A DNA stretch of 41,286 bases, taken from assembly GCA_030407315.1 (NCBI GenBank), contig JALQPE010000273.1:1-41286 (forward strand). Reading direction: 5' to 3'. A model generated the notes under the pieces. The model searched no databases, was not told the origin of the DNA, and saw only the letters and a program-made list of their open reading frames with translations. The position numbers and the translations under genes were made by a program. The DNA comes from Asparagopsis taxiformis. Taxonomy: Eukaryota > Rhodophyta > Florideophyceae > Bonnemaisoniales > Bonnemaisoniaceae. This document shows, in pieces, positions 6,310 to 37,844 of this stretch. Numbering within the stretch: the stretch's first letter is position 1; every line of letters starts with the position of its first letter.

Positions 6310-6314
6310 AAAAG
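6310..6314. repeat. Target-site duplication (AAAAG), second copy
   Basis: Partner of 1312-1316. Host arm sequence continues from here without loss. Confidence 0.93.
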
Positions 6315-6457
6315 AGAGGCTGGAAAGTAGAGGAGCGGCTGGTCGTAGCGGCTGAATGCCTTGGAGAGTTGCACTAAATTAGTTTGGTTTAGTTACGCTG
6401 GTAAAGAAGTTAAATACGTTCTTGTGTCTCTTGTTCTGGACGATGTGACGGTGTGTG

Positions 6458-6826
6458 TCATAATGTGGTGGAAGTAAGAGGGTGAGCATCGGGGTGGGAG
6501 TATGGGACGATATAATCAGATGGAGATGAAGTGCTGGCAGGAATGATACTCTGTGACTGCGAGTCGTGCGCAATGGGAAGAGGGCAGTGCGACAGATCGT
6601 ATGTGTAGGAGTAATGGATCAGTGGGTGTGTCGAATAATACGCGAAGCGAAGCAGCATACCTGGCGCAAGGACTGGTGTGGCGACTGTCGTCTCATTCAT
6701 TGAAGTGATGGGATGTGCAGTGGAAAACGGGTGGGTGTTGGTTGGGTGGCACATCGAGTGAATCACGGAAAATACGTTTTCCCCTGGACGACGCTCTCTG
6801 CCCGCATATCGATGCCACGAAGCCAT
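6458..6826 (-). CDS. Hypothetical 122-codon frame in the left arm
   Basis: Open frame starting MASWHRYAGRER, rich in His, Ser, Thr and Pro, with no recognised domain. In the right arm the matching frame begins at 27829 but an extra A in CCAAGGGG shifts it, splitting it into two frames. A frame broken by one base between two nearly identical arms has probably not been under selection, so this may be upstream non-coding sequence or pseudogene. Confidence 0.2.
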   Translation of the reverse strand: MASWHRYAGRERRPGENVFSVIHSMCHPTNTHPFSTAHPITSMNETTVATPVLAPGMLLRFAYYSTHPLIHYSYTYDLSHCPLPIAHDSQSQSIIPASTSSPSDYIVPYSHPDAHPLTSTTL

Positions 6827-6892
6827 GTGCGGAGACGGGTGTGACGTTCGCGGGCGGTGGTGGGTGAAAACCCATCTTATCGCACCAGTTTA

Positions 6893-7354
6893 TAGTCTCC
6901 TACCTACCCTAGAGCTCTTTTGACGTGCCCAGTCCTAAGTTTCGTACCACTTGATCACTCACATACTATATTTTATGGTTAAACACATTATAATGTGATT
7001 CTATAGAATCACAGTTGATGGACAGCATCATATCCGTTTATTGTTGGTGATATAGCGATATAAATTAACCGAGGAGATTGTTGAGGTTGTACTTCGGGTA
7101 CGATGTTGAATGTTAGATTAGAATTCCCGTCAATATAACTGTACCATCATCCATCCGCTCGCATTCATCCATGTATGGATGGCGTTTCTCGACATGGCTA
7201 CTATGTAATTATGAGCGATTGGCAGTGGCAAAGGGAAATCTACTGCGACAACTGTCCACCCAATTGCGTGCAATCTCTTGCTCATTAACTCTTCCTCTTG
7301 CCCCTCTTCAGTAACTTCTCCACGCCCCAATCTCTCCCCATCTCCACCATCTTC
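6893..7354. other. Arm intergenic sequence
   Basis: Between the hypothetical frame and the DUF676-like pseudogene. It starts with a segment of about 55 bp (GTTTATAGTCTCC... to ...TTTCGTACC, 6893-6949) that recurs in the right arm and a third time at 39031-39092. A 12-bp AT-rich inverted pair, TGATTCTATAGAATCA, lies near 6998-7013. No gene is seen. Confidence 0.5.
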
Positions 7355-8203
7355 CTAATATCTGAACCGCATAAAAATACGGCATCCCTTCTCGTCATAG
7401 TCCTCCTCAACCATGTGCACTGCCTGCACTTCATTCTCACACCACCCTTGCTGTACAATGTCCTCCACTTCAGCACCACTCATAATCTGTACCGAGGGTT
7501 CAAACGCCGCTGTTACATATTTGACCATAAAGTCGTTGCGAACGTTTGCATACAAATATCTCTTCTCAAATGCGCGCAGTGCCGACAAGAATTTCAATCC
7601 TAATATGTTATTATCACTCGACATGGCGACCAGCAATCCATCTTCATCTCTTAATAACAACTCCCTCGCCGTTTCGCCGAAAACATTTCCGCCATTCCCA
7701 TTAAGCCGTCCGGAATGAGCCGATAAACCCCAAAACTTGTGCATCCCAAGGTGCGGACTTGCAACCGCGATAAATCGGCGTCCAATCAAGTCCGCAACCA
7801 GACCCGTTTCCTCATTGTATAGCTTTGCAGCTGCGTACCGCACATACAAACCACCCAACAAGAACCCTACTAAACTGATTGCATTGAAAATGTCATTCTC
7901 TGCAACAATTCTTTGCATATCTTCGGCCAATCTCTAGCCTCCGAGTAGGATACCATCGTGGGTGTTATCCGTATTCACCTTTGTCACAAGCACTAATAAT
8001 TCGCAGCTCGAAGCAGCTGTAGCTGCTTGCAGTTCATCCAAGACATATGTAAGGTCTTCTAAAGCACCATGGAGCTCATGAGCGAGGACGAGTAGTTCTG
8101 TGGGAGGTGCGCGTATGAGCGCGTCATGTGGCAGAACGAGGGGTGGAGACGCTGGACGACGGAGTGCTATTGCGAAAGGAAGACGCACGGTAACATTAAT
8201 CAC
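7355..8203 (-). pseudogene. DUF676 serine esterase/lipase-like pseudogene, left arm
   Basis: Two frames joined by an in-frame TAG (about 7934-7936) give the start of an alpha/beta-hydrolase of the DUF676 (ROG1-like lipase) type. It reads LLVLAHELHGALEDL (usual LVVLVHGLHG), then DGILLGG-stop-RLAEDM, then SLVGFLLGGLYVRYAAA (usual GHSLGGLYVR), then RRFIAVASPHLG. The nucleophile Ser is replaced by Leu (TTG, one transition from TCG) and the preceding His by Phe. Further on, HKFWGL is followed by a shifted frame, returning later to FGETARELLLRDE because this arm lacks one A present in the right arm. A functional lipase is unlikely. The stop and the lost Ser are shared with the right arm. Confidence 0.75.
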
Positions 8204-8472
8204 TATTCCCTAATTGCCCAACTCGAGTAGTAATTAAGACGACTCTTCCCCGACATGATCAATCATTCCGTAACCGCACGCTTCATTGCTCTGTGAAAAA
8301 GTGTATCCAACACACTTGTTGCCAGCATGTATGAGAATGGTCGTAGAGCTGAGAGAGCTATCTTACAGATTGTATAATGCGTGTAAAAGTAGGAGTCTTG
8401 ATGTTTGTCAAGGATGTCTAAAATTGTAGACAGCGTCGAAAAGATCAGCGCACATGAGCGCTCAGAATACGA

Positions 8473-9801
8473 TTACAAATCGCCTGCTTCACTCGCGACT
8501 GAAATCGAAACCAACATCGCATGAAGAGCTTTTTTCGAATCTTCAACGGCATTCGTCATGATGTGCGGTGTAATAATATTCACATAAGTCCCGGCACCTA
8601 GGAAAAACAACGCCTGTAGAAGCAGATCCAGAATACAACATCGATCAGTTTCGCAATGCCAAAATCCATCCAGACGATCCTCATCGGTGGGCAACGACGA
8701 TATTTTCATACGCTCCATCAACAAAACCATAACCGCTGCTACTGGACAGGCAGACAGTTTGTGATGACTTCCATAAGGCGTATTCGCAGTGCAGTCACAA
8801 ATCAACACGCCCACCGTCAGCCGCAGCGAGAAAAGCCCTTTCATCGCTAACTCTCAAACACGTCGCCAATAATTGCGAACAGGCGTCCACAACGACGTTG
8901 CTTTCCGCAGATTTGTGTTGCGTCAATTCGCCGGCATTCGCATCCGAAAGGTCGCACATAACCTCTGCAATCGCACGATGAACAGGATCCGGGTCTGGCG
9001 TGTCCTGCGCGGCATGAAAAGAAGACTTGAGTTGGGTGCAAATCATGTGCAATAGCTGATGAGAAGTTTGCGAATAACCGATGACATCGCACAGCGCGGC
9101 AGCGGCATGTTCTGCAATTTGCGGGATACCAATCGCGGCGATGATTGTCGACAGAATAGCCGGGTCGCTCGAATAGGCCTGCCAGGCTTGTAAACAAGAG
9201 ACAGCGGCACGGGCATTACGCAAAGCCGCATGGTCGAGATGGGCAGGAAGATTGGCCTGCAAATTGGCCATCATGAAGAGAGGCGTCTGCTGAACAACGT
9301 GTGCATTTGTGGCACAAAAGCGGTGCAAAGGCTGCGTCTCGGCGTGTTGATACTCGAGCATGACGGCCGACATGACGTGAAATATGCGCACCTGTTCGTC
9401 GGCGAGTACGCAGCGGGGGTCGAGCCACATGGAGATGCGCAGCGACGATTGAAAATGTGCCATCGCAAAGGCGCATGCGCGCGCGAAGAAATAGAGGGCA
9501 GAGGGGTGGTGGAGCGGGAGCGCGAGGGCACGAGGCGGGATTCATAAGGCGTAGATGCGTTGTGGGTCATCGGTGAACATCAACCAATCGGTTTGGAATC
9601 GACGATGCAGCGTAGTGGCGGCGAACAGAAGCGCGTGTGGCGTCGCATCGGTGTGATCAATTGTGCGCATATGGAACATGTTGATTGGGAATGACGCACG
9701 GCGGTGAGATAACGATCGGCTTGCGATATTTTTGTGCCGCGGTCGAGTGTGGGCAAAGCGAGATGCACGTTGGCGAGGGTGAATTGATGTGTGTTTGTCA
9801 T
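8473..9801 (-). pseudogene. Transportin-3/importin-13-like pseudogene, left arm
   Basis: It starts MTNTHQFTLANVHLALPTL at 9801. The first ~90 codons have the importin-beta N-terminal pattern (ALPTL...ADRYLTAVRHSQSTCSICAQLI... then FAATTLHRRFQTDW), as in TNPO3/IPO13/Mtr10 nuclear import receptors. Here one base is lost near 9653, so the frame breaks at SICAQLI. An in-frame TGA (9542-9544) follows YAL, also present in the other arm. The body continues at 9463-8795 with helical-repeat sequence (SCLQAWQAYSSDPAIL, HAAAALCDVIGYS). It shifts once more before CDCTANTPYGSHHKL and ends at 8473. The total is about 440 codons against roughly 900 for the family, so the C-terminal half is absent. Confidence 0.7.
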
Positions 9802-9871
9802 GGATTACGATTAGCGACTTGATCCATGAAAGTGTATGTTGGAAAAATAGTCGAGAGCGTGTTGTGGTGTG

Positions 9872-9876
9872 GGGCG
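9872..9876. repeat. Target-site duplication (GGGCG) of gypsy-1
   Basis: Repeated at 16805-16809. The right arm has a single copy (CGCCC, 24773-24777) in continuous sequence, which is the pre-insertion site. Confidence 0.96.
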
Positions 9877-10108
9877 TGTGGAAATGACTTTTACAAGAAA
9901 AATTCTACAGGTAATTTCTACCAGAATTTTAATTTAGGGTTAGGTGGACGTCTGGAAGTTTCCAGCCGTCCAACCGTAGGAAGCTAAATACAGCTCCCAG
10001 CGGTCGGAATAACCTAAGGGAGATAAGCTAGACTTAGTAAAAATCAATCTATCTACGTTTCTACAACCTACATCGTTTTCTCTCCCCGTCACGTGGCCAC
10101 GTACAACA
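9877..10108 (+). repeat. Gypsy-1 5' LTR (232 bp)
   Basis: TGTGGAAATGAC...GTACAACA. Compared by eye with 16573-16804, no difference was found. It ends with the palindrome ACGTGGCCACGT (about 10091-10102). Confidence 0.96.
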
Positions 10109-10124
10109 TGGTACTCTTGTGGAG
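10109..10124 (+). promoter_or_regulatory. Gypsy-1 primer-binding site (putative)
   Basis: TGGTACTCTTGTGG directly follows the 5' LTR, in the place and with the TGG start expected for a site complementary to a tRNA 3' end. Which tRNA is not known. Confidence 0.5.
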
Positions 10125-10167
10125 GGCCGACGACCCGAACCAGCAGGCGGGTCCATCCACTGCTAAG

Positions 10168-10530
10168 ATGGACGGCTCTCTCTCTTCCGACGTCAAGAAG
10201 TTCTTCTTCTTCTTCGAGAACGTCGCTATGCGCGGCAAGTCCGACGAGGAGAAAGCGCTCGAACTCCTCGCCCACCTCGAGGGCGAGGCATTCGACTTCT
10301 ACTACGAAACGTTCGCCAAGGATGGAGCGCTGACGGAAGAGGCTATGAACTACGCCCTCGTCAAGAAGGCCTTCATCGATCGTTTCGGAGTCAAGACAGA
10401 GCCGAGTGACGATATCCGCAGTGCCATCAATGCGGTACTGGATCCCGAGGATCTTGTCGGCTCGCTCAAAACTATGGATCGTCTGTTCGAAAAGGCATCT
10501 TTCAATGATGAAGCTAAGTTGGCCTTCTGA
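10168..10530 (+). pseudogene. gag: Gypsy-1 gag, N-terminal part
   Basis: Capsid-like (retrotransposon gag) sequence. The start chosen is the ATG at 10168, because the earlier in-frame ATG at 10108 overlaps the LTR end and primer site. It includes EKALELLAHLEGEAFDFYY, typical of gypsy capsids, and ends at TGA after KLAF. The next frame picks up at once with LRNALSRFPELAQF, so one base has been lost near 10526, in the middle of the capsid. That is not a usual place for programmed frameshifting. Confidence 0.85.
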
Positions 10531-12422
10531 GGAATGCACTCTCCCGCTTCCCAGAACTGGCCCAGTTCGCGATCTATCGCGGTGCCACGCACTACACCGA
10601 CCTCAAGAAAGTGGTGCGTGACTTCGACCAGGGTCGCAAGGACTTCCTCTCTTCCGTCCCGTATCACGATACAGGGAAACAGCACCCGCTCGATTCCACC
10701 TTTGGATCTAAGCGGGTCCTGAACCGTCCCGACGCACGAACGTCACAGGTGGAGAACAAGGTGGACAAGCTAGCGGAGCAACTCGCTGAGCTCTCCCTCA
10801 TCGTCCGCAAGCAGACAGGAGCATCCTCATCGGATAGGCGCGAAACGCCTCGTCCTTGCTCCTTCTGTCAGAAGCCTGGACATGGGGCTAACTACTGCCC
10901 CGAAAACCCTCACCGAGACACCCGTTGCTCAAAATGTGGTCGTCTGGGTCATTCTGTCGCGACTTGCTATAGTCGCAAGAAGGGCACGGAGAAGCAGAGG
11001 AGCCCCTCTACCGGCAGGGACGATTCCTCCCGTTCGAATCAAGTTACCGTTGTAACCGCAACTCCCGATGTTGTTGGTACTACGAAACGTACCATGACTG
11101 GAGAAGCGGTTCCGAAGCAACGTCGAGCTGAGGGGATCAACACTGAAAACCTGATGCACCCAACGCCTGGTCGTATCCTACCTCCCTTGCAACTGGAGCC
11201 TCTTCCCATCCGAGGGAAGAAAAACCGCAAGGCGAAGAAAAAGAACACTTCCAAGAAGGTTCTTCAAGATCATGTCGGAAAGTACGACGTTTTTGGAGAG
11301 CTCGCTAATGCGTCTACAGGCCTCACGTTCGGCCAACTCCTCCGTGGAGACGCCGCCGAAGCCGCCAAAGAGATGCGACGTCTCTTCTCGCCTCTTAAGA
11401 ATCGCCGACCGAGTAAGGCTGCGCCAGCCTTAAACGTTCAGAACAAACGAGTTTTGATGGTCGCGCCAGTTCGTATCTATGGGCGAGAGATTCGCGCGCT
11501 CCTGGATACTGGGGCTATACCCAATATCATCTCTGCAGATCTCGCCCGTCAGTTGTGCCTCCTGCCGAAGCGTACCAAGCAGAGGATTACGGTCGCAGAT
11601 GGGTCGAGCGCCAACTGTATTGGTCGTGTCAAAGATGTGCCCATAACCTTTGGAAACCTCACAGCTTCCATGGATTTCCTCACCATTGAAAAGGCACCTA
11701 TCGGCCTCATCATCGGCTTACCGGCCATGGAGGATCTACAGGCTAAACTGGATATTGGGAGTCGAGTCGTTGAGATACAACTCGGCAAAGAATCGGCAAG
11801 GATTGGGCTAGAACCCGATAACGGCCTCCACTTCCTTCCCCAGGGTGGTAGTGAAAGCGAAGACTTCATGTCTCTCAGCACCGATGAAGGAGCCTCGACG
11901 ACTTCTTCAGGCGAAGAAGACGAAGGTACGCTAATTGTCGCCCACGTTGATTTCGCCAAGCCGCAAATAGCGGTCGAAGAGGAGAGCGACCTCTCTAAGA
12001 CCGAAGAGCATGACAAGCTCATCGAAGAAAAACTCGTGCATCTATCACCCTCGGATAGACGAGTTATATCGGAGTCGTTGAAGGACTACGGAATCGTAGC
12101 TTGGTCCTTTCACGATCTCAGGAAAGCCGACGTCCCTGTTAAACACTCTTTTGAGCTGGAAGACGACACCCCTGTCTACCACCAACCTCGTCGGTTGTCG
12201 CCGAAACACAACGAGGTAGTACGATCCGAAATCGATCGCATGCTGGAAGCGGGAATCATCACCCCGGCCTCATCAGCATGGTCCTTCCCGGTGGTCATTG
12301 CTACGAAGAAGGACGGGAAACCTCGTTTCTGCGTCGACTACCGCATCCTGAATCGGAAGATCAAACCCGATCGTTGGCCCTTACCCGATGACGACTTTCG
12401 TCACCCGTTACGGTACCTATAA
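10524..12422 (+). pseudogene. Gypsy-1 gag C-terminus, protease and RT N-terminus
   Basis: Continuation of gag (from LRNALSRFPEL), then two CCHC zinc knuckles (CSFCQKPGHGANYC at about 10858-10899, CSKCGRLGHSVATC at about 10925-10966) for nucleic-acid binding. A basic linker follows, then an aspartic protease (RALLDTGAIPN, about 11494-11526) and the RT N-terminus (SSAWSFPVVIATKKDGKPRF, YRILNRKIKPDRWPLP). After WPLP the sequence jumps into codons that normally follow RT motif A, in another frame, and stops at 12422. Confidence 0.88.
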
Positions 12423-13461
12423 GTTCGAAGTTATGCCGTTTGGACTAATGAATGCCCCGTCCACCTTCCAGAGGATGATGGATGAGATGGTCAAGGATCT
12501 TCCATTCGTCCGAGCGTATCTCGACGACGTTGTGGTATTCTCTAAAAACATGGAAGAACACGTCTCCCACCTTCGTATCCTTTTCGAGACTTTAAGTCAG
12601 AGGGGTTTGAAGCTGAAGATCGTCAAATGCTTCTTCGCTCAACCTAAAGTCGAGTTGCTTGGTCACATCGTTAGCCACGATGGGGTGTCAGTAGACCCCG
12701 CCAAGATTTCTGCCATTAGAGACGTAGCTCCGCCGCAAACCGCTTCCGAGCTCCGCAGCTTCCTCGGTTTGGCGGGCTACTATCGCCGGTTCATTAAGGG
12801 GTTTGCTGACATCTCGGCTTCTCTATTCCCGTATACCTCTTCTGGACGTTCCTTCGAATGGACAGAGGAGATGAATCAGGCCTTCTGGACGCTGAAGGAA
12901 AAACTAACTTCGGCTCCCGTCCTTTCCTTCCCTGACTTCGATACTCCCTTCGTAGTCGAGACAGATGCCTCCTCCGTATCCGTCGGAGCTGTACTAGCGC
13001 AGAAGAAGGAAGACGGGCGTATTAATCCTATTCAATTCGCGAGTAGGACGATGAATGCGGCCGAACGAAAATATTCGGCATGCGAACGAGAGGCCCTAGC
13101 AGTTATCTTTGCACTGAAGAAATTCCGACTCTACCTTCTGTCCACCCAGCCCTTCAAGCTGATGACGGATCACCAAGCGTTGCAATACGCATTCCAGAAG
13201 AAAGATATACACGGGCGACTTGCCCGTTGGCTCGACTTCCTCGCGGAATACGACTTCGTCATATCGTTCAGGCCGGGAAAACAGAACTCCGCTGCAGACT
13301 TTCTGTCCCGTCTAGAACAAACCCATACCGCTCCGGGGTCAGGAGAAGATAAGGGCGACCTCGCCCTGCTTTCCATTCCAGAAGCCCTCCGCATAGAACC
13401 TGACCTAGTCGCAGTGTTCCAATACTTACGTACTTACGGGGTGGAGCTGAACCCGAAGTAG
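12388..13461 (+). pseudogene. Gypsy-1 RT C-terminus and RNase H
   Basis: It begins inside RT at TTFVTRYGTYKFEVMPFGL. Motif B (NAPSTFQRMMDEM) and motif C (YLDDVVVF) are present, but the motif A block with the first catalytic Asp is missing. The RT thumb and RNase H follow, with Asp at ETDASSVSVG, Glu at CEREALAV and Asp at MTDHQAL, and the ADFLSR end. The frame closes at 13461. The natural continuation (EVEGLARQKV) is one base out of frame. Confidence 0.9.
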
Positions 13462-14614
13462 AGGGCCTCGCTCGACAAAAGGTTCGACGGAGTTCCAAGG
13501 ATTTCTTAGTCTGGGAAGACCAGCTCTTTCGCCGCACCGCGTTGGGACCCAAGGTAGTCGCACCGATTCCGCTCCGAATCAAGATCCTGCAAATGTTCCA
13601 CGACAACATGGTCATTGGGACGCTGCCTCGACCCGTCAGTTTATCGTGGAACGTTACTGGTGGCCGCGTATGGGCAAGGACATTCACGACTACGTTCGGA
13701 GTTGTGAGGGGTGTCAGAAGAATAAACCGGTACCCCGCTATCGGACTACCCTGAGTCAGCCGTTGACAGGCCTTTTCCACACGTTTTCCATCGACTTTGC
13801 GGGACCGCTCCCGCGCACGGCCAAAGGTAACCGATTCCTTCTCATCGCCGTCGAACACCTCACTGGCTGGCCTATCGCCAGGGCCACCGCAGCTAGTACC
13901 GCGGATGTCGTACTCAATTTCGTGAAGGATGAGATCATCTACTCGTTCGGTCCCCCAACTACCATTGTATCCGACAATGCGGGGTGTTTCACAGCTGCGA
14001 CACTCGCGAGTTTCATGAAGAGCAACGGGATCGATTGGAAGACCGTGCTTGAGTACTCCCCCATGTCTAACGGGCGAGCCGAGCGGATGGTAGGGACCAT
14101 CAAGAGGTCCTTAGCCAAAGTCAAAGGAAGGGACTCAGTCGAATGGGACACGCTTCTTCCGCACGTTCTCTACGGTTATCGCCGTCGTTGCATGACAGGC
14201 GGAACCTCCCCCTTCGAACTGATGTACGGAGTAGTCCCGAGGGTAGTCGCCCACGACCCGTCACCGCTTCTGGACCGTCCACTGGACCCTCAATCCCGAC
14301 TGTTTGAGATGTTAGCTCTCCAGTCGCAACGAGCAAGCAGGGTAGAAATGCATCTACGCAATACCCAAGCTCGAGCTCATCTACCTGAACGTCGGTTCGA
14401 GGTAGGCGACGAGGTCCTTGTGGCGAAAGGGAAAGCTTTCGGAACGACGAAGTTGTCGTTGTTCGAAACCAAGTGGTACGGACCGTTTAAGGTCATCCAA
14501 TCTAGCCACCCCCGATACCTACTCGCCTCCGACCAAGCGAAGGTATCACGCCGCCCCATCCATGCGAGACGTCTACTTCTCTTCCGTAGGCGTCCACTAC
14601 ATCTACTGCATTAA
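13453..14614 (+). pseudogene. Gypsy-1 integrase (frameshifted)
   Basis: The stretch before the zinc finger is open up to FHDN at about 13608. There the frame shifts by one base into WDAASTRQFIVERYWWP. H-H-C-C zinc ligands include CEGC. The catalytic core has D (IDFAGPL, about 13789), D (SDNAGCF, about 13969) and E (NGRAERMVG, about 14078). The C-terminal SH3-like part (VGDEVLVAKG, KWYGPFKV) is present and the protein ends at 14614 without a chromodomain. From 13646 the integrase frame is unbroken. Confidence 0.9.
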
Positions 14615-14779
14615 GTTTCCATTAGGGAAACCCTTCGTTTGCACACTCCCTTTTATGCATAATCCCTTTTAATCATTCAACCCTTGTCTACGCATTCATT
14701 TCAATTCTAGATCTCTCTACCCATTACTAGCTAGTCTACTCAATACGATTCATTTCCTTCTCTATCAAATCGTTCTGTG
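14615..14779. other. Convergent gap between integrase and the antisense genes
   Basis: AT-rich sequence between two convergent 3' ends. No clear signal is seen. Confidence 0.4.
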
Positions 14780-15499
14780 CTAAGACAACCCCTCACCGTC
14801 GATCTTCGCTTTGCGAACCTTCTCGCGCTTCCTCATGCGCTGTCGCTTAGCGCGCTTCTCCTCTGGATTCGAACCCTCCCGTTGTATGCGTCGAAGATCG
14901 TTGAAGGAGGAGAAATCCGACGACTTACTGGTGCTACAACATAAGAAGAATGCCCGAGGCTCTAGACTCATCACAAAGGCTTCAGAGGAGTCGTAGATGA
15001 GACCAGGCCAGGTACGAGAGTCGATACATATGGCGTGTTTCAGGCCATCTCGACTCCACACCTGCACCACGTATACATCAGGCTCCCTCGAAAGTTTCTC
15101 CCGTAACCACGCCCATTGCCTAGAGCGCGAATCTGGGGCTCCTAGGTCGAAATGGGGGATCGCCACCCGGGGCAGAGTCACTGATGAAGGAGCACGATCA
15201 TCGATGGCCTTCGAGACAGAACCAAAGTCCACGACACTAGTACAATAACCTCGAACAAGGCGTTCTTCTTCGTCCCGAGCCAGCTCCCGACGGAAAAACC
15301 TATCGGCCGTGTTAAAATCGCACACGAGAGCGATCCCATTGGCGGCCGCGGCACGCAGGCAGTTGTTGGTGAAGTCCTGCACAGGTACCACCACGCGGTT
15401 CCGAGGAGTCCTCACGAAGAATGGGGGGCTTCGAGGGAGGGCACCCGAGCCATGGCGACATTGACTCGTTTCTTCTTCCCAGGTTTCTTGTAACACCAA
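14780..15499 (-). CDS. Antisense peptidase-like frame of gypsy-1
   Basis: 239 codons, counted from an ATG at 15499. The first ~27 codons overlap the H3-like gene in another frame and are probably not the true start. The conserved-looking part begins near FFVRTPRNRVVV. Possible catalytic sites are a Cys in FTNNCLRAAAANG and a His in GLKHAICIDS, followed by an acidic LIYDSSEAF. The order Cys...His...Asp fits papain/OTU-type cysteine peptidases, and the pattern 'NC.RAA' then 'HAICID...IYDS' resembles them, but no family is confirmed. The C-terminus is strongly basic (KRAKRQRMRKREKVRKAK), as in a nuclear localisation or nucleic-acid-binding tail. It is most likely the second half of the upstream antisense gene. 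Confidence 0.6.
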   Translation of the reverse strand: MVLQETWEEETSQCRHGSGALPRSPPFFVRTPRNRVVVPVQDFTNNCLRAAAANGIALVCDFNTADRFFRRELARDEEERLVRGYCTSVVDFGSVSKAIDDRAPSSVTLPRVAIPHFDLGAPDSRSRQWAWLREKLSREPDVYVVQVWSRDGLKHAICIDSRTWPGLIYDSSEAFVMSLEPRAFFLCCSTSKSSDFSSFNDLRRIQREGSNPEEKRAKRQRMRKREKVRKAKIDGEGLS

Positions 15500-16239
15500 G
15501 CGTCGATGCTGGCTATTAAACTCACCCGCGAGGGTTGACCGTTCCCTCTGGTCACAGGAGAGGGGTTATCCTGCTCCTGGAGTACCGCGTCGCGCTCCGC
15601 CGGTTCGGAGACCTGACGGAAAACCATGGTATACAGATCGATTCGATGGCCGGTTCGCTCCCCTTCGGCGGAGGCATAGAAGCAGCCTTCCAGTTCGCCG
15701 TTCTCACCTCCCTTCGACAACCAGATCTTCTCGATGATCCAATCGGTGTCGTCGGGGCATTCGGCGTACTTCTCGGTGTCACCGTGGGATTCGGTGAGAC
15801 CGAGACGACAAGCCATCTCCGCGGTAAGGATGGAGATGGCCGGATCGGAGGCGAATTCGACGATCTGAGGTCCGAAGAGGAACTCTAGTTCCCTGGCCGT
15901 CACTTGGCACGGATCGCGACGATTTCGGCCAAAGTAGACGACGAAACGACCACGGTGGTCGGAGGAGCGGCGGATGTTCTGGACGTCTTCACGTCCGAAC
16001 CAACGGAAGAGGTTCTGACGAATTCCCCGATGGGATTTGTCGTCGAAGTTAACCTCGTTGGCCCGCACGGGGACGGCTTCCCCGGGGCGATAGCGTACCT
16101 CCTGGCCGCCCTCGCGACGGTAGGTGCCAGGAGCCGCGGGAGGGTCTCGTCTGGGAATCCGCGCCGCCCGAGCAGCTAGCTCCTGCCGAGGGGCAGTCCC
16201 CCCAGTCGACTTCTTTGCGGTCTGTTTCGTCTTGGACAT
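15412..16239 (-). CDS. Antisense protein with a histone H3 tail-like N-terminus
   Basis: 275 codons from ATG 16239. The first residues, MSKTKQTAKKSTGGTAPR, align without gaps to the H3 tail. With Met removed (Ser next, favourable for removal), T3, K4, Q5, T6, A7, K9, S10, T11, G12, G13, A15, P16 and R17 keep their H3 positions, as do L20, A21, A24, A25 and R26. R2 and R8 become Lys; K14, K18, K23 and K27 become Thr, Gln, Arg and Ile. After a 20-residue insert comes VRYRPGEAVPVR, similar to the H3 RYRPGTVALR segment. The remaining ~210 residues (for example RFVVYFGRNRRDPCQ, DTDWIIEKIWLSKGG) match no family I know. The frame ends shortly after a C6 run at 15422-15427, and one extra base there would join it to the peptidase-like frame. 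It is oriented opposite to gag-pol, with its own upstream motif cluster. Confidence 0.88.
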   Translation of the reverse strand: MSKTKQTAKKSTGGTAPRQELAARAARIPRRDPPAAPGTYRREGGQEVRYRPGEAVPVRANEVNFDDKSHRGIRQNLFRWFGREDVQNIRRSSDHRGRFVVYFGRNRRDPCQVTARELEFLFGPQIVEFASDPAISILTAEMACRLGLTESHGDTEKYAECPDDTDWIIEKIWLSKGGENGELEGCFYASAEGERTGHRIDLYTMVFRQVSEPAERDAVLQEQDNPSPVTRGNGQPSRVSLIASIDAWCYKKPGKKKRVNVAMARVPSLEAPHSS

Positions 16240-16572
16240 CTCAATGGATCACCCACCAGGTACCGAAAGGCCCACGTAAGCAAGATCTCAACAAATCGAT
16301 GACCGCGACTACGCAGGGTGCTCGGAGAGACGACCGAAGGGAAGGCGGGAAGTGGGATGGCTGCAAACAGACGTTTACTGTAAGTTATCGCACTACAGTA
16401 AGCTACCAACTACTGTAAAGTACTTACAGTGCTTACAGTAAGGAAGGGGTCAGCGGTGGAAGGGGGTCTGGAGTCCAGACCCACGCGGAAGTACTGCCGG
16501 CTTTTATACCGAGCGCAGCCCAGAACCTGCGAAATTAGACCTCCTCGGTGCCTCGGTCTGGCCGGGGGGTCA
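16240..16572 (-). promoter_or_regulatory. Putative promoter region of the antisense genes
   Basis: Non-coding on the minus strand upstream of the H3-like gene. At 16372-16442 a motif of the form TACTGTAA or its complement occurs about five times at short intervals (TTTACTGTAAG, CTACAGTAAG, CTACTGTAAAG, CTTACAGTGC, CTTACAGTAAGG). At 16464-16482 there is a perfect odd palindrome, GGGTCTGGA-G-TCCAGACCC. Clustered binding sites are the simplest reading. The 3' LTR directly beyond could also supply antisense transcription. Confidence 0.45.
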
Positions 16573-16804
16573 TGTGGAAATGACTTTTACAAGAAAAATT
16601 CTACAGGTAATTTCTACCAGAATTTTAATTTAGGGTTAGGTGGACGTCTGGAAGTTTCCAGCCGTCCAACCGTAGGAAGCTAAATACAGCTCCCAGCGGT
16701 CGGAATAACCTAAGGGAGATAAGCTAGACTTAGTAAAAATCAATCTATCTACGTTTCTACAACCTACATCGTTTTCTCTCCCCGTCACGTGGCCACGTAC
16801 AACA
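16573..16804 (+). repeat. Gypsy-1 3' LTR (232 bp)
   Basis: Identical to the 5' LTR by eye. It is preceded by a G-rich run (GGCCGGGGGG, about 16560-16569) that may be the polypurine tract. Confidence 0.96.
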
Positions 16805-16809
16805 GGGCG
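16805..16809. repeat. Target-site duplication (GGGCG), second copy
   Basis: Partner of 9872-9876. The left arm resumes here (TTTGGTCAATCTTGCGT), matching the right arm. Confidence 0.96.
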
Positions 16810-16948
16810 TTTGGTCAATCTTGCGTTCAGCCTTTCTGTGTGCCTCTCGACCCCATTTCCGGACACCTGTCTCAACACACATTCTGCTCGCCCATTGGCT
16901 GTTTCACACGCTGGTGATGTTTACAATGTCAGCATGTCTCCCAGACTT

Positions 16949-17901: not shown

Positions 17902-18229
17902 TGTCACGCATTCCAAATAATGCGATTCAAATGGAGATCCCAAATTCGGTTCTATTATGCCCATTATCATCTTTCCTGTATTTCCTCTCAAGACTCCGTT
18001 TGGCGCAGCCAAATGCTACCCAATTAATGGAAGACCTTTTCTTTTTGACTGGCTAACTAGGAAACTTTGGCGGTGCAAGCTGTTTATCGCTGGGAATTGG
18101 ACAAAGTCAATGAAACAGAAAACATAGCTAGGGAGATATCGAGTGTATTTAAACGCAGGTAGCAGAGAGTAGAAGTAAAGGAGGCAGGAAAAACCACCTC
18201 AACAAAAACTCAAACCACGATTAACTACA
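17902..18229 (+). repeat. Gypsy-2 5' LTR (328 bp)
   Basis: TGTCACGCATTCC...TTAACTACA. Two differences from the 3' LTR were seen: G at 18089 (A in the other) and A at 18104 (T in the other). Confidence 0.95.
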
Positions 18230-23162: not shown

Positions 23163-23490
23163 TGTCACGCATTCCAAATAATGCGATTCAAATGGAGATC
23201 CCAAATTCGGTTCTATTATGCCCATTATCATCTTTCCTGTATTTCCTCTCAAGACTCCGTTTGGCGCAGCCAAATGCTACCCAATTAATGGAAGACCTTT
23301 TCTTTTTGACTGGCTAACTAGGAAACTTTGGCGGTGCAAGCTGTTTATCACTGGGAATTGGACATAGTCAATGAAACAGAAAACATAGCTAGGGAGATAT
23401 CGAGTGTATTTAAACGCAGGTAGCAGAGAGTAGAAGTAAAGGAGGCAGGAAAAACCACCTCAACAAAAACTCAAACCACGATTAACTACA
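23163..23490 (+). repeat. Gypsy-2 3' LTR (328 bp)
   Basis: Same length and ends as 17902-18229. Directly upstream is the purine run AAAAAGAAGGGG (23150-23161), a good polypurine tract. Confidence 0.95.
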
Positions 23491-24177: not shown

Positions 24178-24780
24178 CTAATTAGAATTATAGCGTTCTA
24201 TCCATAGAGGCACGAGCTCACGGTCGTTGATATCCAGTTCCTTGGAAAATAAACACATTACAATACGACTGCCAGTCGTATTGTACTCCATGCCCAGTGG
24301 GCATGGAGAGTATAATTTCTTCCCAAATGGACAGAGTGGACGTGTCAAATTCATCAATGAAAAAAGGTTTGTATCATCAATCCAACTGCCATCATCACAG
24401 GTGACCAAATAGGTCAATAGAACCTGAGGCAGTGTAACAATAATACTGACAGCTTTTGCATCTGTACCACGCTTCTTGGCTTGCTGTCCGAGCTGACTGC
24501 CATCGCCCAAGTCGAGCAAAATTTCATTGGATCTACCAAGGCCCACTTGGGCGCACAGCAACGTATACATTACCTCTGCAGAGCGTCGACGAGAGGCGCA
24601 AAATACGGCCACACCATTCCATAGTCGGTTACGAAGTCTGGGAGACATGCTGACATTGTAAACATCACCAGCGTGTGAAACAGCCAATGGGCGAGCAGAA
24701 TGTGTGTTGAGACAGGTGTCCGGAAATGGGGTCGAGAGGCACACAGAAAGGCTGGACGCAAGATTGACCAAACGCCCCAC
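24178..24780 (-). pseudogene. Spacer gene, 5' segment
   Basis: 200 open codons. There is no ATG near the start; the first in-frame Met is in SMSPRLRNRLW, so the true start is elsewhere or lost. Segments include MYTLLCAQVGLG, VTLPQVLLTYLVTCDDGSW and LDINDRELVPLWIE. No domain is recognised. The first ~50 codons lie in the inverted duplication, so a cut-off copy exists at 16805-16948. A one-base shift near 24190 leads into the next segment. It is divergent from the transportin-like gene. Confidence 0.35.
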
Positions 24781-24847
24781 ACCACAACACGCTCTCGACT
24801 ATTTTTCCAACATACACTTTCATGGATCAAGTCGCTAATCGTAATCC

Positions 24848-26179
24848 ATGACAAACACACATCAATTCACCCTCGCCAACGTGCATCTCGCTTTGCCCAC
24901 ACTCGACCGCGGCACAAAAATATCGCAAGCCGATCGTTATCTCACCGCCGTGCGTCATTCCCAATCAACATGTTCCATATGCGCACAATTGATCAACACC
25001 GATGCGACGCCACACGCGCTTCTGTTCGCCGCCACTACGCTGCATCGTCGATTCCAAACCGATTGGTTGATGTTCACCGATGACCCACAACGCATCTACG
25101 CCTTATGAATCCCGCCTCGTGCCCTCGCGCTCCCGCTCCACCACCCCTCTGCCCTCTATTTCTTCGCGCGCGCATGCGCCTTTGCGATGGCACATTTTCA
25201 ATCGTCGCTGCGCATCTCCATGTGGCTCGACCCCCGCTGCGTACTCGCCGACGAACAGGTGCGCATATTTCACGTCATGTCGGCCGTCATGCTCGAGTAT
25301 CAACACGCCGAGACGCAGCCTTTGCACCGCTTTTGTGCCACAAATGCACACGTTGTTCAGCAGACGCCTCTCTTCATGATGGCCAATTTGCAGGCCAATC
25401 TTCCTGCCCATCTCGACCATGCGGCTTTGCGTAATGCCCGTGCCGCTGTCTCTTGTTTACAAGCCTGGCAGGCCTATTCGAGCGACCCGGCTATTCTGTC
25501 GACAATCATCGCCGCGATTGGTATCCCGCAAATTGCAGAACATGCCGCTGCCGCGCTGTGCGATGTCATCGGTTATTCGCAAACTTCTCATCAGCTATTG
25601 CACATGATTTGCACCCAACTCAAGTCTTCTTTTCATGCCGCGCAGGACACGCCAGACCCGGATCCTGTTCATCGTGCGATTGCAGAGGTTATGTGCGACC
25701 TTTCGGATGCGAATGCCGGCGAATTGACGCAACACAAATCTGCGGAAAGCAACGTCGTTGTGGACGCCTGTTCGCAATTATTGGCGACGTGTTTGAGAGT
25801 TAGCGATGAAAGGGCTTTTCTCGCTGCGGCTGACGGGTGGGCGTGTTGATTTGTGACTGCACTGCGAATACGCCTTATGGAAGTCATCACAAACTGTCTG
25901 CCTGTCCAGTAGCAGCGGTTATGGTTTTGTTGATGGAGCGTATGAAAATATCGTCGTTGCCCACCGATGAGGATCGTCTGGATGGATTTTGGCATTGCGA
26001 AACTGATCGATGTTGTATTCTGGATCTGCTTCTACAGGCGTTGTTTTTTCCTAGGTGCCGGGACTTATGTGAATATTATTACACCGCACATCATGACGAA
26101 TGCCGTTGAAGATTCGAAAAAAGCTCTTCATGCGATGTTGGTTTCGATTTCAGTCGCGAGTGAAGCAGGCGATTTGTAA
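24848..26179 (+). pseudogene. Transportin-3/importin-13-like pseudogene, right arm
   Basis: Better preserved partner of 8473-9801. The N-terminal 86 codons are intact from ATG 24848 to an in-frame TGA at 25106-25108. The same frame continues directly into 25187-25849, so only the stop separates them. One extra G at GACGGGTGG (about 25834-25840) shifts the frame before the CDCTANTPYGSHHKL segment, and an extra T in the run near 26045 (TTTTTT against TTTTT in the left arm) breaks the last part. Importin-beta family proteins carry SR-protein and other cargoes into the nucleus with Ran; this truncated copy is not expected to work. It lies head to head, 67 bp apart, with the minus-strand gene ending near 24780. 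Confidence 0.72.
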
Positions 26180-26389
26180 TCGTATTCTGAGCGCTCATGT
26201 GCGCTGATCTTTTCGACGCTGTCTACAATTTTAGACATCCTTGACAAACATCAAGACTCCTACTTTTACACGCATTATACAATCTGTAAGATAGCTCTCT
26301 CAGCTCTACGACCATTCTCATACATGCTGGCAACAAGTGTGTTGGATACACTTTTTCACAGAGCAATGAAGCGTGCGGTTACGGAATGA

Positions 26390-27299
26390 TTGATCATGTC
26401 GGGGAAGAGTCGTCTTAATTACTACTCGAGTTGGGCAATTAGGGGAATAGTGATTAATGTTACCGTGCGTCTTCCTTTCGCAATAGCACTCCGTCGTCCA
26501 GCGTCTCCACCCCTCGTTCTGCCACATGACGCGCTCATACGCGCACCTCCCACAGAACTACTCGTCCTCGCTCATGAGCTCCATGGTGCTTTAGAAGACC
26601 TTACATATGTCTTGGATGAACTGCAAGCAGCTACAGCTGCTTCGAGCTGCGAATTATTAGTGCTTGTGACAAAGGTGAATACGGATAACACCCACGATGG
26701 TATCCTACTCGGAGGCTAGAGATTGGCCGAAGATATGCAAAGAATTGTTGCAGAGAATGACATTTTCAATGCAATCAGTTTAGTAGGGTTCTTGTTGGGT
26801 GGTTTGTATGTGCGGTACGCAGCTGCAAAGCTATACAATGAGGAAACGGGTCTGGTTGCGGACTTGATTGGACGCCGATTTATCGCGGTTGCAAGTCCGC
26901 ACCTTGGGATGCACAAGTTTTGGGGTTTATCGGCTCATTCCGGACGGCTTAATGGGAATGGCGGAAAATGTTTTCGGCGAAACGGCGAGGGAGTTGTTAT
27001 TAAGAGATGAAGATGGATTGCTGGTCGCCATGTCGAGTGATAATAACATATTAGGATTGAAATTCTTGTCGGCACTGCGCGCATTTGAGAAGAGATATTT
27101 GTATGCAAACGTTCGCAACGACTTTATGGTCAAATATGTAACAGCGGCGTTTGAACCCTCGGTACAGATTATGAGTGGTGCTGAAGTGGAGGACATTGTA
27201 CAGCAAGGGTGGTGTGAGAATGAAGTGCAGGCAGTGCACATGGTTGAGGAGGACTATGACGAGAAGGGATGCCGTATTTTTATGCGGTTCAGATATTAG
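26390..27299 (+). pseudogene. DUF676 serine esterase/lipase-like pseudogene, right arm
   Basis: Partner of 7355-8203. It has the same in-frame TAG (26717-26719) after DGILLGG and the same GFLLGG in place of GHSLGG. This arm has one extra A in the run after GGCGG, so the frame used after HKFWGL is different: the natural reading YRLIPDGLMGMAENVFGETA is intact from about 26925, and the lesion is the missing base just before it. The last part, up to 27299, reads to a common stop. Start is uncertain; an ATG at 26396 is in frame with the lipase region. Confidence 0.75.
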
Positions 27300-27828
27300 G
27301 AAGATGGTGGAGATGGGGAGAGATTGGGGCGTGGAGAAGTTACTGAAGAGGGGCGAGAGGAAGAGTTAATGAGCAAGAGATTGCACGCAATTGGGTGGAC
27401 AGTTGTCGCAGTAGATTTCCCTTTGCCACTGCCAATCGCTCATAATTACATAGTAGCCATGTCGAGAAACGCCATCCATACATGGATGAATGCGAGCGGA
27501 TGGATGATGGTACAGTTATATTGACGGGAATTCTAATCTAACATTCAACATCGTACCCGAAGTACAACCTCAACAATCTCCTCGGTTAATTTATATCGCT
27601 ATATCACCAACAATAAACGGATATGATGCTGTCCATCAACTGTGATTCTATAGAATCACATTATAATGTGTTTAACCATAAAAATATAGTATGTGAGTGA
27701 TCAAGTGGTACGAAACTTAGGACTGGGCACGTCAAAAGAGCTCTAGGGTAGGTAGGAGACTATAAACTGGTGCGATAAGATGGGTTTTCACCCACCACCG
27801 CCCGCGAACGTCACACCCGTCTCCGCAC

Positions 27829-28198
27829 ATGGCTTCGTGGCATCGATATGCGGGCAGAGAGCGTCGTCCAAGGGGAAAACGTATTTTCCGTGATTCACTC
27901 GATGTGCCACCCAACCAACACCCACCCGTTTTCCACTGCACGTCCCATCACTTCAATGAATGAGACGACAATCGCCACACCAGTCCTTGCGCCAGGTATG
28001 CTGCTTCGCTTCGCGTATTATTCGACACACCCACTGATCCATTACTCCTACACATACGATCTGTCGCACTGCCCTCTTCCCACTGCGCACGACTCGCAGT
28101 CACAGAGTATCATTCCTGCCAGCACTTCATCTCCATCTGATTATATCGTCCCATACTCCCACCCCGATGCTCACCCTCTTACTTCCACCACATTATGA
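27829..28198 (+). pseudogene. Right-arm copy of the hypothetical frame, frameshifted
   Basis: Counterpart of 6458-6826. It starts MASWHRYAGRERRP and then changes frame because of one extra A near 27871. The original frame is recovered as an open stretch from 27848 to 28198. Protein unrecognised. Confidence 0.3.
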
Positions 28199-28280
28199 CA
28201 CACACCGTCACATCGTCCAGAACAAGAGACACAAGAACGTATTTAACTTCTTTACCAGCGTAACTAAACCAAACTAATTT

Positions 28281-28562
28281 AGTGCAACTCTCCAAGGCAT
28301 TCAGCCGCTACGACCAGCCGCTCCTCTACTTTCCAGCCTCTCCTTTCCCTCTAATATCGCCTTCGCTACCCTCTTTACAAACATGCAAGCCCAGAAATTC
28401 TAAAATTTCGGGACCAAGAAAATTGCAAAAAAACATCGATTTGGGAGGTCGAAAGTGCCGTACGGCACACCCCCATCTCAAAAACACGTTCACATGTGCA
28501 TGTTTTTGAGAATAGCCCAAATTTTAATTCAATTCAGGTCGTCTAATTTGGTCACAACGGCC
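28281..28562. repeat. Outer part of the right arm with hairpin, palindrome and copia empty site
   Basis: Uninterrupted counterpart of 1097-1316 plus 6310-6370. The copia insertion point lies in CTCTCCTTTCCCTC (about 28339-28352). The perfect 14-bp palindrome is at 28455-28468. A related sequence (AGAAATTCTAAAATTTC) recurs just outside the arm near 28840-28857, so part of this segment is itself a repeat family. Confidence 0.7.
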
Positions 28563-34123: not shown

Positions 34124-34775
34124 TACAAACGTTCTGCTGAGCCATGTTCCTGACTTCCCAATTCCTTGCTCACCCTTCCCTAGGTGGGAGGGGGACGGAA
34201 CTCTCAGCCCCTTACAGCGGAAGCCGTTTACCGGGGATTCTTACAGCAAAGTCATCGTTACGATGACTTTGCTGTAAGAAAGCGTTTCCATTACAGTGGC
34301 CAAGAATTTTTTCACCGGGTAAAAAAATCATGGCAGCTGTAATGATTTATTTTCTTACAGCAAAGTCATCGTAACGATGACTTTGCTGTAAGGAAACGTT
34401 TCCATTGCAGTGGCCAAAGAAATTTTACCGGGTAAAAAATCAGCAAGAATTTTTACCGGGTGAAAAATCGTGGCTGCTGTAATGATTTATTTTCTTACAG
34501 CAAAGTCATCGTTACGATGACTTTGCTGTAAGAAAGCGTTTCAATTACAGTGGCCAAGAATTTTTTTACCGGGTAAAAAATCATGGCTGCTGTAATGATT
34601 TATTTTCTTACAGCAAAGTCATCGTAACGATGACTTTGCTGTAAGCATCCCTGGTAAATTGCTTCCGCTGTAAGCGGCAGGGACTTCCGTCCTTTTCCGA
34701 CCTAGGGAAGGGTGAGGAAGGAATTATGAAGTCAGGAAACAGGGTATAGGAATGGTATGGACGGCTGTAGGCGGC
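34124..34775. repeat. Fold-back element A (four 39-bp palindromes)
   Basis: Core 34208-34679, with inverted ends CGCTTACAGCGGAAGC. The inverted match continues outwards to about 34124 and 34775 (CACCCTTCCCTAGG on the left, its complement on the right), so each end is about 120 bp. Inside are four palindromes made of CTTACAGCAAAGTCATCGT, one base, and its exact complement: 34240-34278 (centre T), 34354-34392 (A), 34494-34532 (T), 34607-34645 (A). Between them lie copies of a second palindrome, TTTACC-G-GGTAAA. No coding capacity. Confidence 0.9.
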
Positions 34776-35506
34776 ATTAGGTAACACATTGTGTTGTTTA
34801 CACCCGGTTTGAGCTGGGTGTTGTGTCTAGTATGGTTGGAGGAGTGTACGAAATTTCTACCACGTGGTCGGAAATGGTTCAATTTTCTCACGACAGAGAT
34901 TCTGACTTTCGAAATTCAAACTCGTTAAAGTGGGCTGGAGTTGGTGTGAACACCTCCAGGACCTCTGGGAAGGATCTGGTAACACATGTCCTGTGACTGC
35001 ACGCGGTTATCCTCTCTGAAATCAACCATAGATTATCGGAGGGCAAAATCTACTCTTGGTGCCTTGTGGCACATTGACAATACAAAACCGTCTGTTTCCA
35101 GTTTTTATATACTTTACTCTCGAGTAGATAGGATTTCAGCTGTCCAAGTAAAGAATGGGCCATATAAATGTTTCATTTCAACACAAGCATTGTGCAATTC
35201 AACCTCTTCCAGGTCCAAAAACTTGTCCAGAGTACACTTCCAGGCCATCGCCTGGGAGCGTACTCTGGACAATTTTTTGGACTAAGTGCACTTTCAAGTG
35301 CATGCACTTGGAGGCATCCAGTCCAAATCTACGTCGTTCCGACAAAGTTGAATTTTGGCCATGGCCGAAATTCATCATATCTGCAGTTGTGAGAATCTGA
35401 TGACCAAAAATCGATGCATTCTGCCAGCCCTAATGCGCAAGCCAGAAGCTTTACGGACAGATAAAACACCTTTCTGTACTCCCCAGAGCCACTCCAGCCC
35501 TTATAC
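34776..35506. repeat. Diverged segmental duplication, unit 1
   Basis: Matches 36090-36480 and 37150-37560 in order (for example AACACCTCCAGGACCTCTGG, then ATCAACCATAGATTATCGG, then a 'GGTGCC.TGTGGCACA' segment). The later part (35150-35520) matches 37850-38130. An inverted pair, GTCCAGAGTACACTTCCAGG / CCTGGGAGCGTACTCTGGAC, is at about 35224-35272. No gene is recognised. Confidence 0.7.
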
Positions 35507-35806
35507 ACTACGGTGTTGAAAAGGGGGCCTCAGACAGTACGGTGAGACAGTGCTTTTTACTGCCTCACTGTACAATGATCTCCAGGAAGTAGGATATTCT
35601 CTAAGCCTAGCACGGGACAGAAAGATTGAAGCGTAGGCATGCAGAAGTATAGAGGCAATAGTATGTGTAGACTATGGCAGTGGTAGAAAAGTATTTCATG
35701 CACGAAAAGGACTGGTAGAGTGGCACTAGAGAAGTGATGCTTAGCAGGAAGGGATGTGGAGATGATGAAGGAGGACAACAGACATGAGATCGAGGGTTGA
35801 GACCAA
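35507..35806. repeat. Copy of the GACAGT block start, then unannotated sequence
   Basis: 35507-35575 repeats 28996-29060 (ACTACGGTGTTGAAAAGGGG, GACAGT copies). The rest, to 35806, resembles 36480-36705 and 37555-37790 at low identity. Confidence 0.6.
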
Positions 35807-36022
35807 CGGCTTACAGACGGAGCAGTTTACCAGGGATGTTTACAGCAAAGTCATCGTTACGATGACTTTGCTGTAAGAAAACAATTCATTACAGTAGCCA
35901 TGATTTTTTTACCGGGTAAAAAATTCCTGGCCACTGTAATGAAAACGTTTTCTTACAGCAAAGTCATCGTAACGATGACTTTGCTGTAAGCATCCCTGGT
36001 AAACTGCCTCAGCTGTAAGCGG
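35807..36022. repeat. Fold-back element B (two 39-bp palindromes)
   Basis: Ends CGGCTTACAGACGG and, inverted, CTCAGCTGTAAGCGG. It contains palindromes at 35839-35877 (centre T) and 35952-35990 (centre A) on either side of one TTTTTTTACC-G-GGTAAAAAA. This is the simplest version of the family: one S-centred palindrome framed by two W-centred ones in opposite polarity. Confidence 0.9.
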
Positions 36023-36705
36023 CTGGGAGCTTGGTCCCTCCCTCACCTTGGGAAGGGTGAGCAAGGAATTGTGAAGCCGTAAAACATGGCAGAGGGATGG
36101 TTTGGACGGCTGTTAGCGGTGTTGGGGAGCACTCTGCGTCGTGCTAACCCAGTCTGGGCTGGGTGCCCTGCCTGGTACGGCGGGAGGAGTGCACAAAATT
36201 TCAAACACAATTTCCTCAAGAGTGAAATTCTGATTGTCGAAACTCAACCTCCCTAAAATGAACTAGAGCTGGCATGAGCACCTCCAGGACGTCTGGAAAG
36301 GTACTGACAGCACATTTTCGGAGCATTGGCGCAGCTGTTCTCTCTGAGATCAAGCATAGAGTATCCGTGGCCAGATTCTATTCCTGGTGCCGTGTGGCAC
36401 AGTGACCACACCAAATCGCCCTTTTTAGCAGACTGTAGATTTGAGTTACTAGGAATCTAGCTGCCTTCAATACGAACATAGTTGGTAAGTAGGCTAGCCT
36501 AGGATTGTAGGAAAATCAGGAAGGATGGGAGGGTAGGTATGCAGCAACATGAAGGGGATAGTATGAGTAGATTATGGCGGTGGTAGAGAAGGATTGCACT
36601 CACTGAAGGGTCGGCTGGAGTGACACCGGAGTCGACATAGAAGGGAGGTTGGGATAGGCTGGGATGAAGGAAGACAAGAGACATGAGAGAGAGGGTGAAG
36701 CCAGA
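36023..36705. repeat. Diverged segmental duplication, unit 2
   Basis: Second copy of the sequence at 34680-35120, starting GGGAGCTTGGTCCCT after element B. No gene is recognised. Confidence 0.65.
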
Positions 36706-37090
36706 CCGCTTACAGCTGAGGCAGTTTACCGCGGGTGCTGACAGCAAAGTCATCGTTACGATGACTTTGCTGTAAGAAAAGAAAACATTACAGCAGGCAC
36801 GTTTTTTTACCCGGTAAAAAAATTCTTGGTGATTTTTTACCCGGTAAAAATTCTTCGCCTACTGTAATGTTTCCTTTTCTTACAGCAAAGTCATCGTTAC
36901 GATGACTTTGCTGTAAGAAAACGTTTCATTACAGTAGCCACGATTTTTTACCCGGTAAAAAAATTCTTGGTGATTTTTTCACCCGGTAAAATCCTTCGCC
37001 CACTGTAATGTTTTCTTTTCTTACAGCAAAGTCATCGTAACGATGACTTTGCTGTAAGCATCCCTGGTAAACTGCCTCAGCTGTAAGCGG
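36706..37090. repeat. Fold-back element C (three 39-bp palindromes)
   Basis: Ends CCGCTTACAGCTGAGGCAG and its complement at 37072-37090. Palindromes are at 36738-36776 (centre T, one mismatch), 36879-36917 (T) and 37020-37058 (A). Between them are four copies of the second palindrome, here with the centre base C (TTTACC-C-GGTAAA) instead of G. Confidence 0.9.
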
Positions 37091-37790: not shown

Positions 37791-37844
37791 CTCTATTATA
37801 TAACTACATTGCTCCTCTATAGGCTACGCAATCCATTCCAGCAG

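Follow-up and report, generated by a model that had tools for sequence, protein, structure and literature searches.

The 41,286-nucleotide contig JALQPE010000273.1 of the red alga Asparagopsis taxiformis (the window) contains a long terminal repeat (LTR) retrotransposon of the Ty3/gypsy type at 9877-16804, recognized by its LTRs, its target-site duplication and the order protease, reverse transcriptase, RNase H and integrase. Between the integrase and the 3' LTR lies a gene on the opposite strand. In its unbroken copies, this antisense gene encodes a protein that has a near-copy of the histone H3 tail at its N-terminus and a predicted papain-like cysteine peptidase domain at its C-terminus. 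Because a near-copy of the H3 tail is joined in this way to a domain predicted to cut proteins, we tentatively regard the tail as a bait for host regulators that bind the tail of H3. The tail itself, its N-terminal place, its retention in deeply diverged relatives, the purifying selection and the conservation of Cys, Asn, His and Asp residues can all be read from the sequences.

In the window, the antisense open reading frame (ORF) occupies 15412-16239 on the minus strand, begins with ATG and codes for 275 amino acids. The methionine and the 26 residues after it (16159-16239, minus strand) stand in gapless register with histone H3, and 18 of the 26 are identical to H3 1-26; on all of these points the initial annotation of the window had been correct. 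Histone H3 sequences of the PDB are the best matches of the ORF (phmmer, E 2.6e-7), and the profile built from 11 copies has its best stretch on H3 at positions 1-30 (E 4.9e-9). A chance likeness is therefore rejected. The likeness concerns the tail, and neither the window ORFs nor the 11 copies give a Pfam histone match for the globular histone-fold domain at E up to 1. In most sibling copies the protein begins MAKTKQTAKKSTGG (MAKTKQ at the N-terminus). Position 1 is Ser in the window copy alone and Ala in 29 of 30 tails of its clade, and the tail of sibling L003 reaches 19/26 identities to H3 1-26. The 275-residue product described initially exists as an ORF, but the full protein has 486 residues and this ORF is just its truncated front part. 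A frame break near residue 272 interrupts the window copy, and what follows is read in another frame at 14783-15421 (minus strand).

A search of the assembly (141.5 Mb in 3156 contigs) returned 71 matches to the antisense gene, many of them fragments and two of them host H3 genes (C171). Thirteen matches run from residue 1 through an open frame of 489-490 codons with no internal stop, giving proteins of 486-487 amino acids. Counted as loci, the copies form two clades, one of 33 loci that includes the window copy (L001) and one of 13, with about 38-43% protein identity between them. Both clades carry the H3 tail, that of clade 2 starting MARTNQTAKRSTGGRAPRK, so that the siblings have kept the H3-like start. 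Pieces of pol lie on the opposite strand at 29/33 clade-1 and 6/13 clade-2 loci, and the pol genes of the two clades are 64% identical in reverse transcriptase-RNase H (354 positions) and 51% in integrase (317 positions). Since both diverged clades carry the antisense gene opposite a gypsy pol, the gene must be old in these elements. Tails were recovered from 30/33 clade-1 and 9/13 clade-2 loci, those of L016, L018, L019, L023, L039, L043 and L047 being short, missing or decayed (visibly so in L019). In the pattern used to collect them, T3 and G13 are fixed and positions 2, 5, 6, 10, 11 and 12 can take a few letters only; the near-invariance of the own-genome tails at these positions is thus partly built in. 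One copy of the gene shares its contig (C2230) with one of the 13 matches to the phycobilisome linker family found in the assembly, which, like the Chondrus crispus origin of the named family members, speak for a red-algal host.

How far does the family extend beyond this genome? With the 275-residue ORF as a protein query, none of 1501 candidates reached E <= 0.01, and the 11-copy profile found three relatives. A profile built from four lineages gave 43 matches at E <= 1 (7994 candidates scored), 15 of which were judged on reading to be members of the family. Among the other 28, the 12 that were read share the H3 part alone and the 16 unread ones have the histone family PF00125 in Pfam. Twelve of the 15 members are tailed, namely P0001 (94%), P0002, P0003, P0004-P0009 from Chondrus crispus, P0012, P0013 and P0017, and the distant ones keep the tail at about 20-40% identity elsewhere in the protein. 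The remaining three, P0010 (a fragment), P0011 and P0021, are without it. When the tail was left out, a profile of 13 core members still recognized P0013 (6e-28), L050 (5e-21), P0003 (2e-16) and P0021 (5e-14), set against a background of 100 shuffled sequences (best 0.04) and seven controls (best 5.6); P0017 matched in the His region only (1.5e-5). In a tree built without the tail, the branches to P0003, P0013 and P0017 exceed two changes per site and their placing is unsure. L050 (G000 C2376) and L051 (G000 C194) are relatives of the C-terminal domain, present in several near-identical copies and with no H3 tail in the open frame. P0003 as a query found nothing in the A. taxiformis assembly, and three scans of viral contigs gave pattern matches and no relative; a fourth gave a 39-residue match (L049), its E-value being relative to the candidates alone.

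Three side observations concern these proteins. P0017 is 832 residues long and has 21/26 identities in its H3-like tail; its Myb-like match is weak, missing the cut-off at E 0.0062. A long opposite-strand ORF beside L050 (L053:505-1500, minus strand) has no Pfam match and may be transposase-like. Five proteins unrelated to the family (P0027, P0033, P0035, P0042 and P0043), of which one belongs to the chytrid Cladochytrium replicatum, also open with H3 1-17 in nearly unchanged form; by their Pfam accessions they combine VWA with U-box or RING domains and so look ubiquitin-ligase-like.

Conservation within the tail is uneven. In the 12 database tails, cut out with a pattern that fixes TKQTA, residues T3, K4, Q5, T6, A7, S10, T11, G12 and G13 are present in every case, P16 and R17 in 11 each and A1 in 10, while K18 and K23 (8/12 each), K14 (7/12) and K9 (6/12) come and go, and position 8 varies among tails. 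Mean pairwise identity among seven diverged members is 0.84 over residues 2-14, 0.48 over residues 15-27 and 0.26-0.27 over residues 28-440; outside the tail, no stretch of 13 columns exceeds 0.47. A further motif, RYRPG, had been counted as H3 likeness. It is indeed present in clade 1 (27/31 copies), but as it occurs in 0/12 clade-2 copies and 1/15 family proteins it does not belong to the conserved H3 likeness. RYRPG was rejected as conserved mimicry, being limited to clade 1 within this genome.

Between the clades, 19 of 26 tail residues are identical at saturated synonymous sites. The ratio of nonsynonymous to synonymous rates (dN/dS, w) was estimated by parsimony on trees of 27 distinct rows out of 32 in clade 1 and of 11/11 clade-2 rows longer than 200 codons. 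On internal branches the clade-2 tail has w 0.09 (3 nonsynonymous and 14 synonymous changes, P 1.4e-5), and the clade-1 tail has w 0.42 (8 and 8 changes), which is not significant (P 0.066). The other regions give 0.15-0.26 in clade 1 and 0.20-0.36 in clade 2, among them the middle region of the protein (residues 61-267; 15439-16059, minus strand), which is under purifying selection with w 0.15 and 0.26, respectively. Terminal branches are more relaxed (0.39-0.52 in clade 1, 0.58-1.28 in clade 2), the tails giving 0.52 and 0.61 there (clade 1 and clade 2, not significant). The strong conservation of the tail shows between lineages and not within clade 1. At the 19 residues shared with host H3, the codons are the same at 5 (L003) or 8 (L010) positions, so the tail is not a recent host H3 exon, and a recent insertion of such an exon was rejected. 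The initial annotation had named three observations that would speak against a functional mimic: a start lost from other copies, a dN/dS near 1 and codons betraying a fresh host exon. All three came out in its favor, with w of 0.09-0.42 on internal branches and the reservation just given for clade 1, and its central claim, an antisense retrotransposon gene whose protein opens with a genuine mimic of the H3 tail, is borne out; the mimic has been maintained by selection.

The C-terminal domain (14783-15421, minus strand) is predicted to have a papain-like fold with a conserved Cys-His-Asp triad. C294, N301, H402 and D417 are identical in seven diverged members, and in the window copy the codons of Cys, His and Asp are at 15359-15361, 15035-15037 and 14990-14992. 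In the structure model the Cys begins the first helix and the His begins a strand. Fold searches, made mainly with residues 269-459, point to papain-like peptidases and Josephin deubiquitinases (staphopain, the C39 peptidase of PCAT1, ataxin-3 and Josephin-2), which have the same predicted fold and the same order of Cys, His and Asp; they differ in that identity in the structural alignments is 6-12%. No Pfam family fits the protein among the window ORFs, the 11 copies and eight database relatives. Specifically, the Pfam profiles of Josephin, C39 and Ulp1 (the last being a cysteine protease) found nothing at E up to 1 in the eight relatives or the 11 copies of A1, and residues 61-267 gave no match in the window ORF and the 11 copies. 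On reading, the Cys motif and the His/Asp motif occur together in nine of the 12 tailed relatives; P0012 and P0006 stop short of one or both of them, and P0017, as noted, matches the profile in the His part alone. The domain is a putative hydrolase, a predicted cysteine protease or deubiquitinase.

This domain had been missed earlier, and its presence shifts the proposed mechanism from a passive decoy to a baited enzyme. A promoter lying between the ATG of the antisense gene and the 3' LTR, or else the LTR itself, would drive expression of this gene. Removal of the initiator methionine would leave a free end, Ala1-(Arg/Lys)2-Thr3-Lys4-Gln5-Thr6-Ala7, followed after two residues by Ser10-Thr11-Gly12-Gly13, and this exposed tail could be bound by readers or modifiers of the beginning of H3. 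The enzyme domain might then cut the bound factors or remove ubiquitin, either theirs or that of nearby chromatin, with the outcome that silencing of the element would be weakened.

Several observations weigh against this proposal. Asparagine at position 4, found in 9/9 clade-2 tails, would break any reading that depends on K4, and position 2 is Lys or Gly in 7/12 relatives. The clade-1 tail, with no significant constraint of its own, is the least constrained of four regions in that clade (pairwise w 0.35-0.41 as against 0.14-0.31, from non-independent pairs). The Cys of the predicted triad is replaced by Phe in L010, whose open frame is the longest in clade 2, and the best Foldseek match, at E 3e-3, falls short of 0.001. 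The tailless relatives P0021, P0011 and L050/L051 show that the peptidase-like domain can exist without the tail. Finally, protein searches favor tailed members, since their five-residue search words include the tail.

Could the tail serve the enzyme itself instead of host factors? N-terminal propeptides are common in papain-like proteases, and an enzyme that clips H3 or an H3-like protein might carry its own H3-like N-terminus as a propeptide or autoinhibitor fitting the active site. A peptidase bearing its own substrate would explain why tail and triad are conserved together, as they are in the nine tailed relatives with both motifs. The highest conservation falls at positions 3-7 and 10-13, which is not a single scissile neighborhood, and the structure model leaves the tail unplaced (predicted local distance difference test, pLDDT, under 50), so that we consider such a pseudosubstrate unlikely, if worth keeping in view.

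An address tag seems rather improbable. Here the tail would do no more than direct the protein into the nucleus or, through the phosphorylation sites T3 and S10, onto mitotic chromatin, bringing the products of the element to chromosomes. S10 and T11 are kept in 12/12 relatives, 30/30 clade-1 and 9/9 clade-2 tails, and T3 equally, though T3 is fixed by the collecting patterns. Haspin, the T3 kinase, gave five partial matches in the range of 24.5-28 bits, at the family cut-off of 25, and these could be other kinases. Importin binding of H3 uses K14 and K23, and it is these lysines that the tails have not conserved.

One role suggested by the initial annotation was a methyl-lysine decoy, in which the tail is methylated at K4 or K9 and titrates methyltransferases or readers of methylated K9 such as HP1. 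Clade 1 taken alone would suit it: K4 and K9 are in place in 30/30 tails, with S10 adjoining K9, and K4 is kept in 12/12 database relatives. Across the family, position 9 is Lys in just 6/12 relatives (Arg in three, Ala, Leu and Asn in one each) and Arg in 9/9 clade-2 tails, K14, K18 and K23 vary as does position 8, and RYRPG is confined to clade 1. A K9-methyl decoy is therefore improbable and was rejected as a family-wide role; moreover, a decoy would leave the conserved peptidase domain without a role. The related suggestion of docking on chromatin through readers survives for K4 readers outside clade 2, but not in clade 2 with its N4. Least probable by far is that the tail is a functionless relic of an H3 exon picked up by the element. 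The N-terminal position and an end near H3 residue 26 do resemble capture of an exon-sized piece, and the constraint on the clade-1 tail alone is not significant (P 0.066). This reading is largely contradicted, however, since the tail persists although synonymous sites are saturated between the clades and the relatives share about 20-40% identity, and since purifying selection acts on the clade-2 tail (P 1.4e-5) and on the rest of the gene.

The element that hosts the gene is bounded by LTRs of 232 bp (TG...CA) at 9877-10108 and 16573-16804, with no mismatch between them, and by the target-site duplication GGGCG at 9872-9876 and 16805-16809. Its flanks (6310-9881 and 16805-16948) recur as an inverted copy at 24634-28346 that shows the empty insertion site, the unoccupied version lying within 24634-24995. 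On the plus strand, three ORFs encode a frame-broken gag-like part with an aspartyl protease (10611-12422; Pfam Asp_protease_2 E 1.3e-9, gag-asp_proteas 1.1e-8), the later part of the reverse transcriptase with RNase H (12388-13461; RT_RNaseH 1e-38, RVT_1 2.1e-20) and the integrase (13646-14614; Integrase_H2C2 8.1e-11, rve 2.3e-9); in other copies, such as L030, protease, reverse transcriptase and integrase lie in one. A CX2CX4HX4C zinc-knuckle motif is visible by eye in the gag-like part, the Pfam zinc knuckle scoring below cut-off (E 0.29-0.33). In the integrase ORF at 13646-14614 (plus strand), the hits up to E 1 include no Chromo domain, the mark of a chromovirus. Upstream of the antisense ATG, which lies 334 bp from the start of the 3' LTR, seven heptamers (ACTGTAA/TTACAGT/ACAGTAA/TTACTGT) form a cluster at 16375-16441, a candidate regulatory array. 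Four to seven matches stand at a similar distance in all 30 clade-1 copies with a located tail, and the cluster is absent upstream of all 10 clade-2 copies with a located tail.

A neighboring LTR element, gypsy-2, has 300-bp direct repeats at 17902-18201 and 23163-23462 (99% identical). Its last ORF does carry a chromodomain (PF00385, E 7.1e-8), as initially annotated, but no link between the two elements was found that would make it the opposite half of an interaction with the tail. Further downstream, repeats in direct and inverted orientation are densely packed at 34144-38914; several families are represented, with tandem units of 49 and 172 bp among them.

Transposable elements seldom reveal how chromatin silencing is fought. 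In the family described here, most of the H3 tail has persisted in front of a predicted hydrolase across a divergence that saturates synonymous sites, and the natural variation of these tails amounts to a ready mutational scan of what an H3-tail-binding partner needs. It is possible, if doubtful, that the family represents a new class of transposon counter-silencing enzyme, a protease or deubiquitinase with the H3 tail as its N-terminus, which host silencers would bind by mistake, to be cut or de-ubiquitinated. If so, red-algal retrotransposons would have kept the bait through deep divergence, and their tails would tell that host readers need residues 3-7 and 10-13 of H3 and can manage without modification of K9 and K14. 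If the bait reading is true, histone mimicry would be a transposon weapon in algae, beyond viruses.

Histone-tail mimics occur in viral and host proteins as short H3-like motifs that bind chromatin factors. The antisense protein shares with them an H3-like sequence, here proposed to bind such factors, and differs in the length of the likeness (26 residues in exact register), in its position at the N-terminus of a transposon protein and in the enzyme-like domain fused to it. Among the matches listed from the open-access literature, no title or beginning of an abstract describes an H3-tail protein in a transposon, subscription papers being outside this scope.

LTR retrotransposons of plants carry antisense accessory ORFs (aORF-3R) whose functions are unknown, for example maize Grande, rice RIRE2 and the TRP28 of Retand (PMC7264820; PMC11963269). 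As in those elements, the gene described here is an ORF antisense to gag-pol, downstream of pol and before the 3' LTR, and it is present in many copies. Differently from them, it has an H3 tail and a peptidase-like domain and resides in a red alga; the word "histone" is absent from the main texts of both papers.

A further parallel is offered by the VANC/KIU proteins of Arabidopsis VANDAL transposons, which are anti-silencing proteins, some with a Ulp1 protease domain (PMC13317346; PMC10398659). These belong to a DNA transposon and are different proteins, with no H3 tail mentioned in the sections of the two papers considered, and the Pfam Ulp1 profile has no match in the 11 copies and eight database relatives of the antisense protein. 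The likeness lies in an accessory protein borne by a transposon, in some cases with a protease domain, and in anti-silencing, which is reported for VANC and just proposed here. VANC counteracts silencing and recognizes short motifs in noncoding regions (PMC13317346; PMC10398659), a feature that can be set beside the cluster of short motifs next to the antisense gene.
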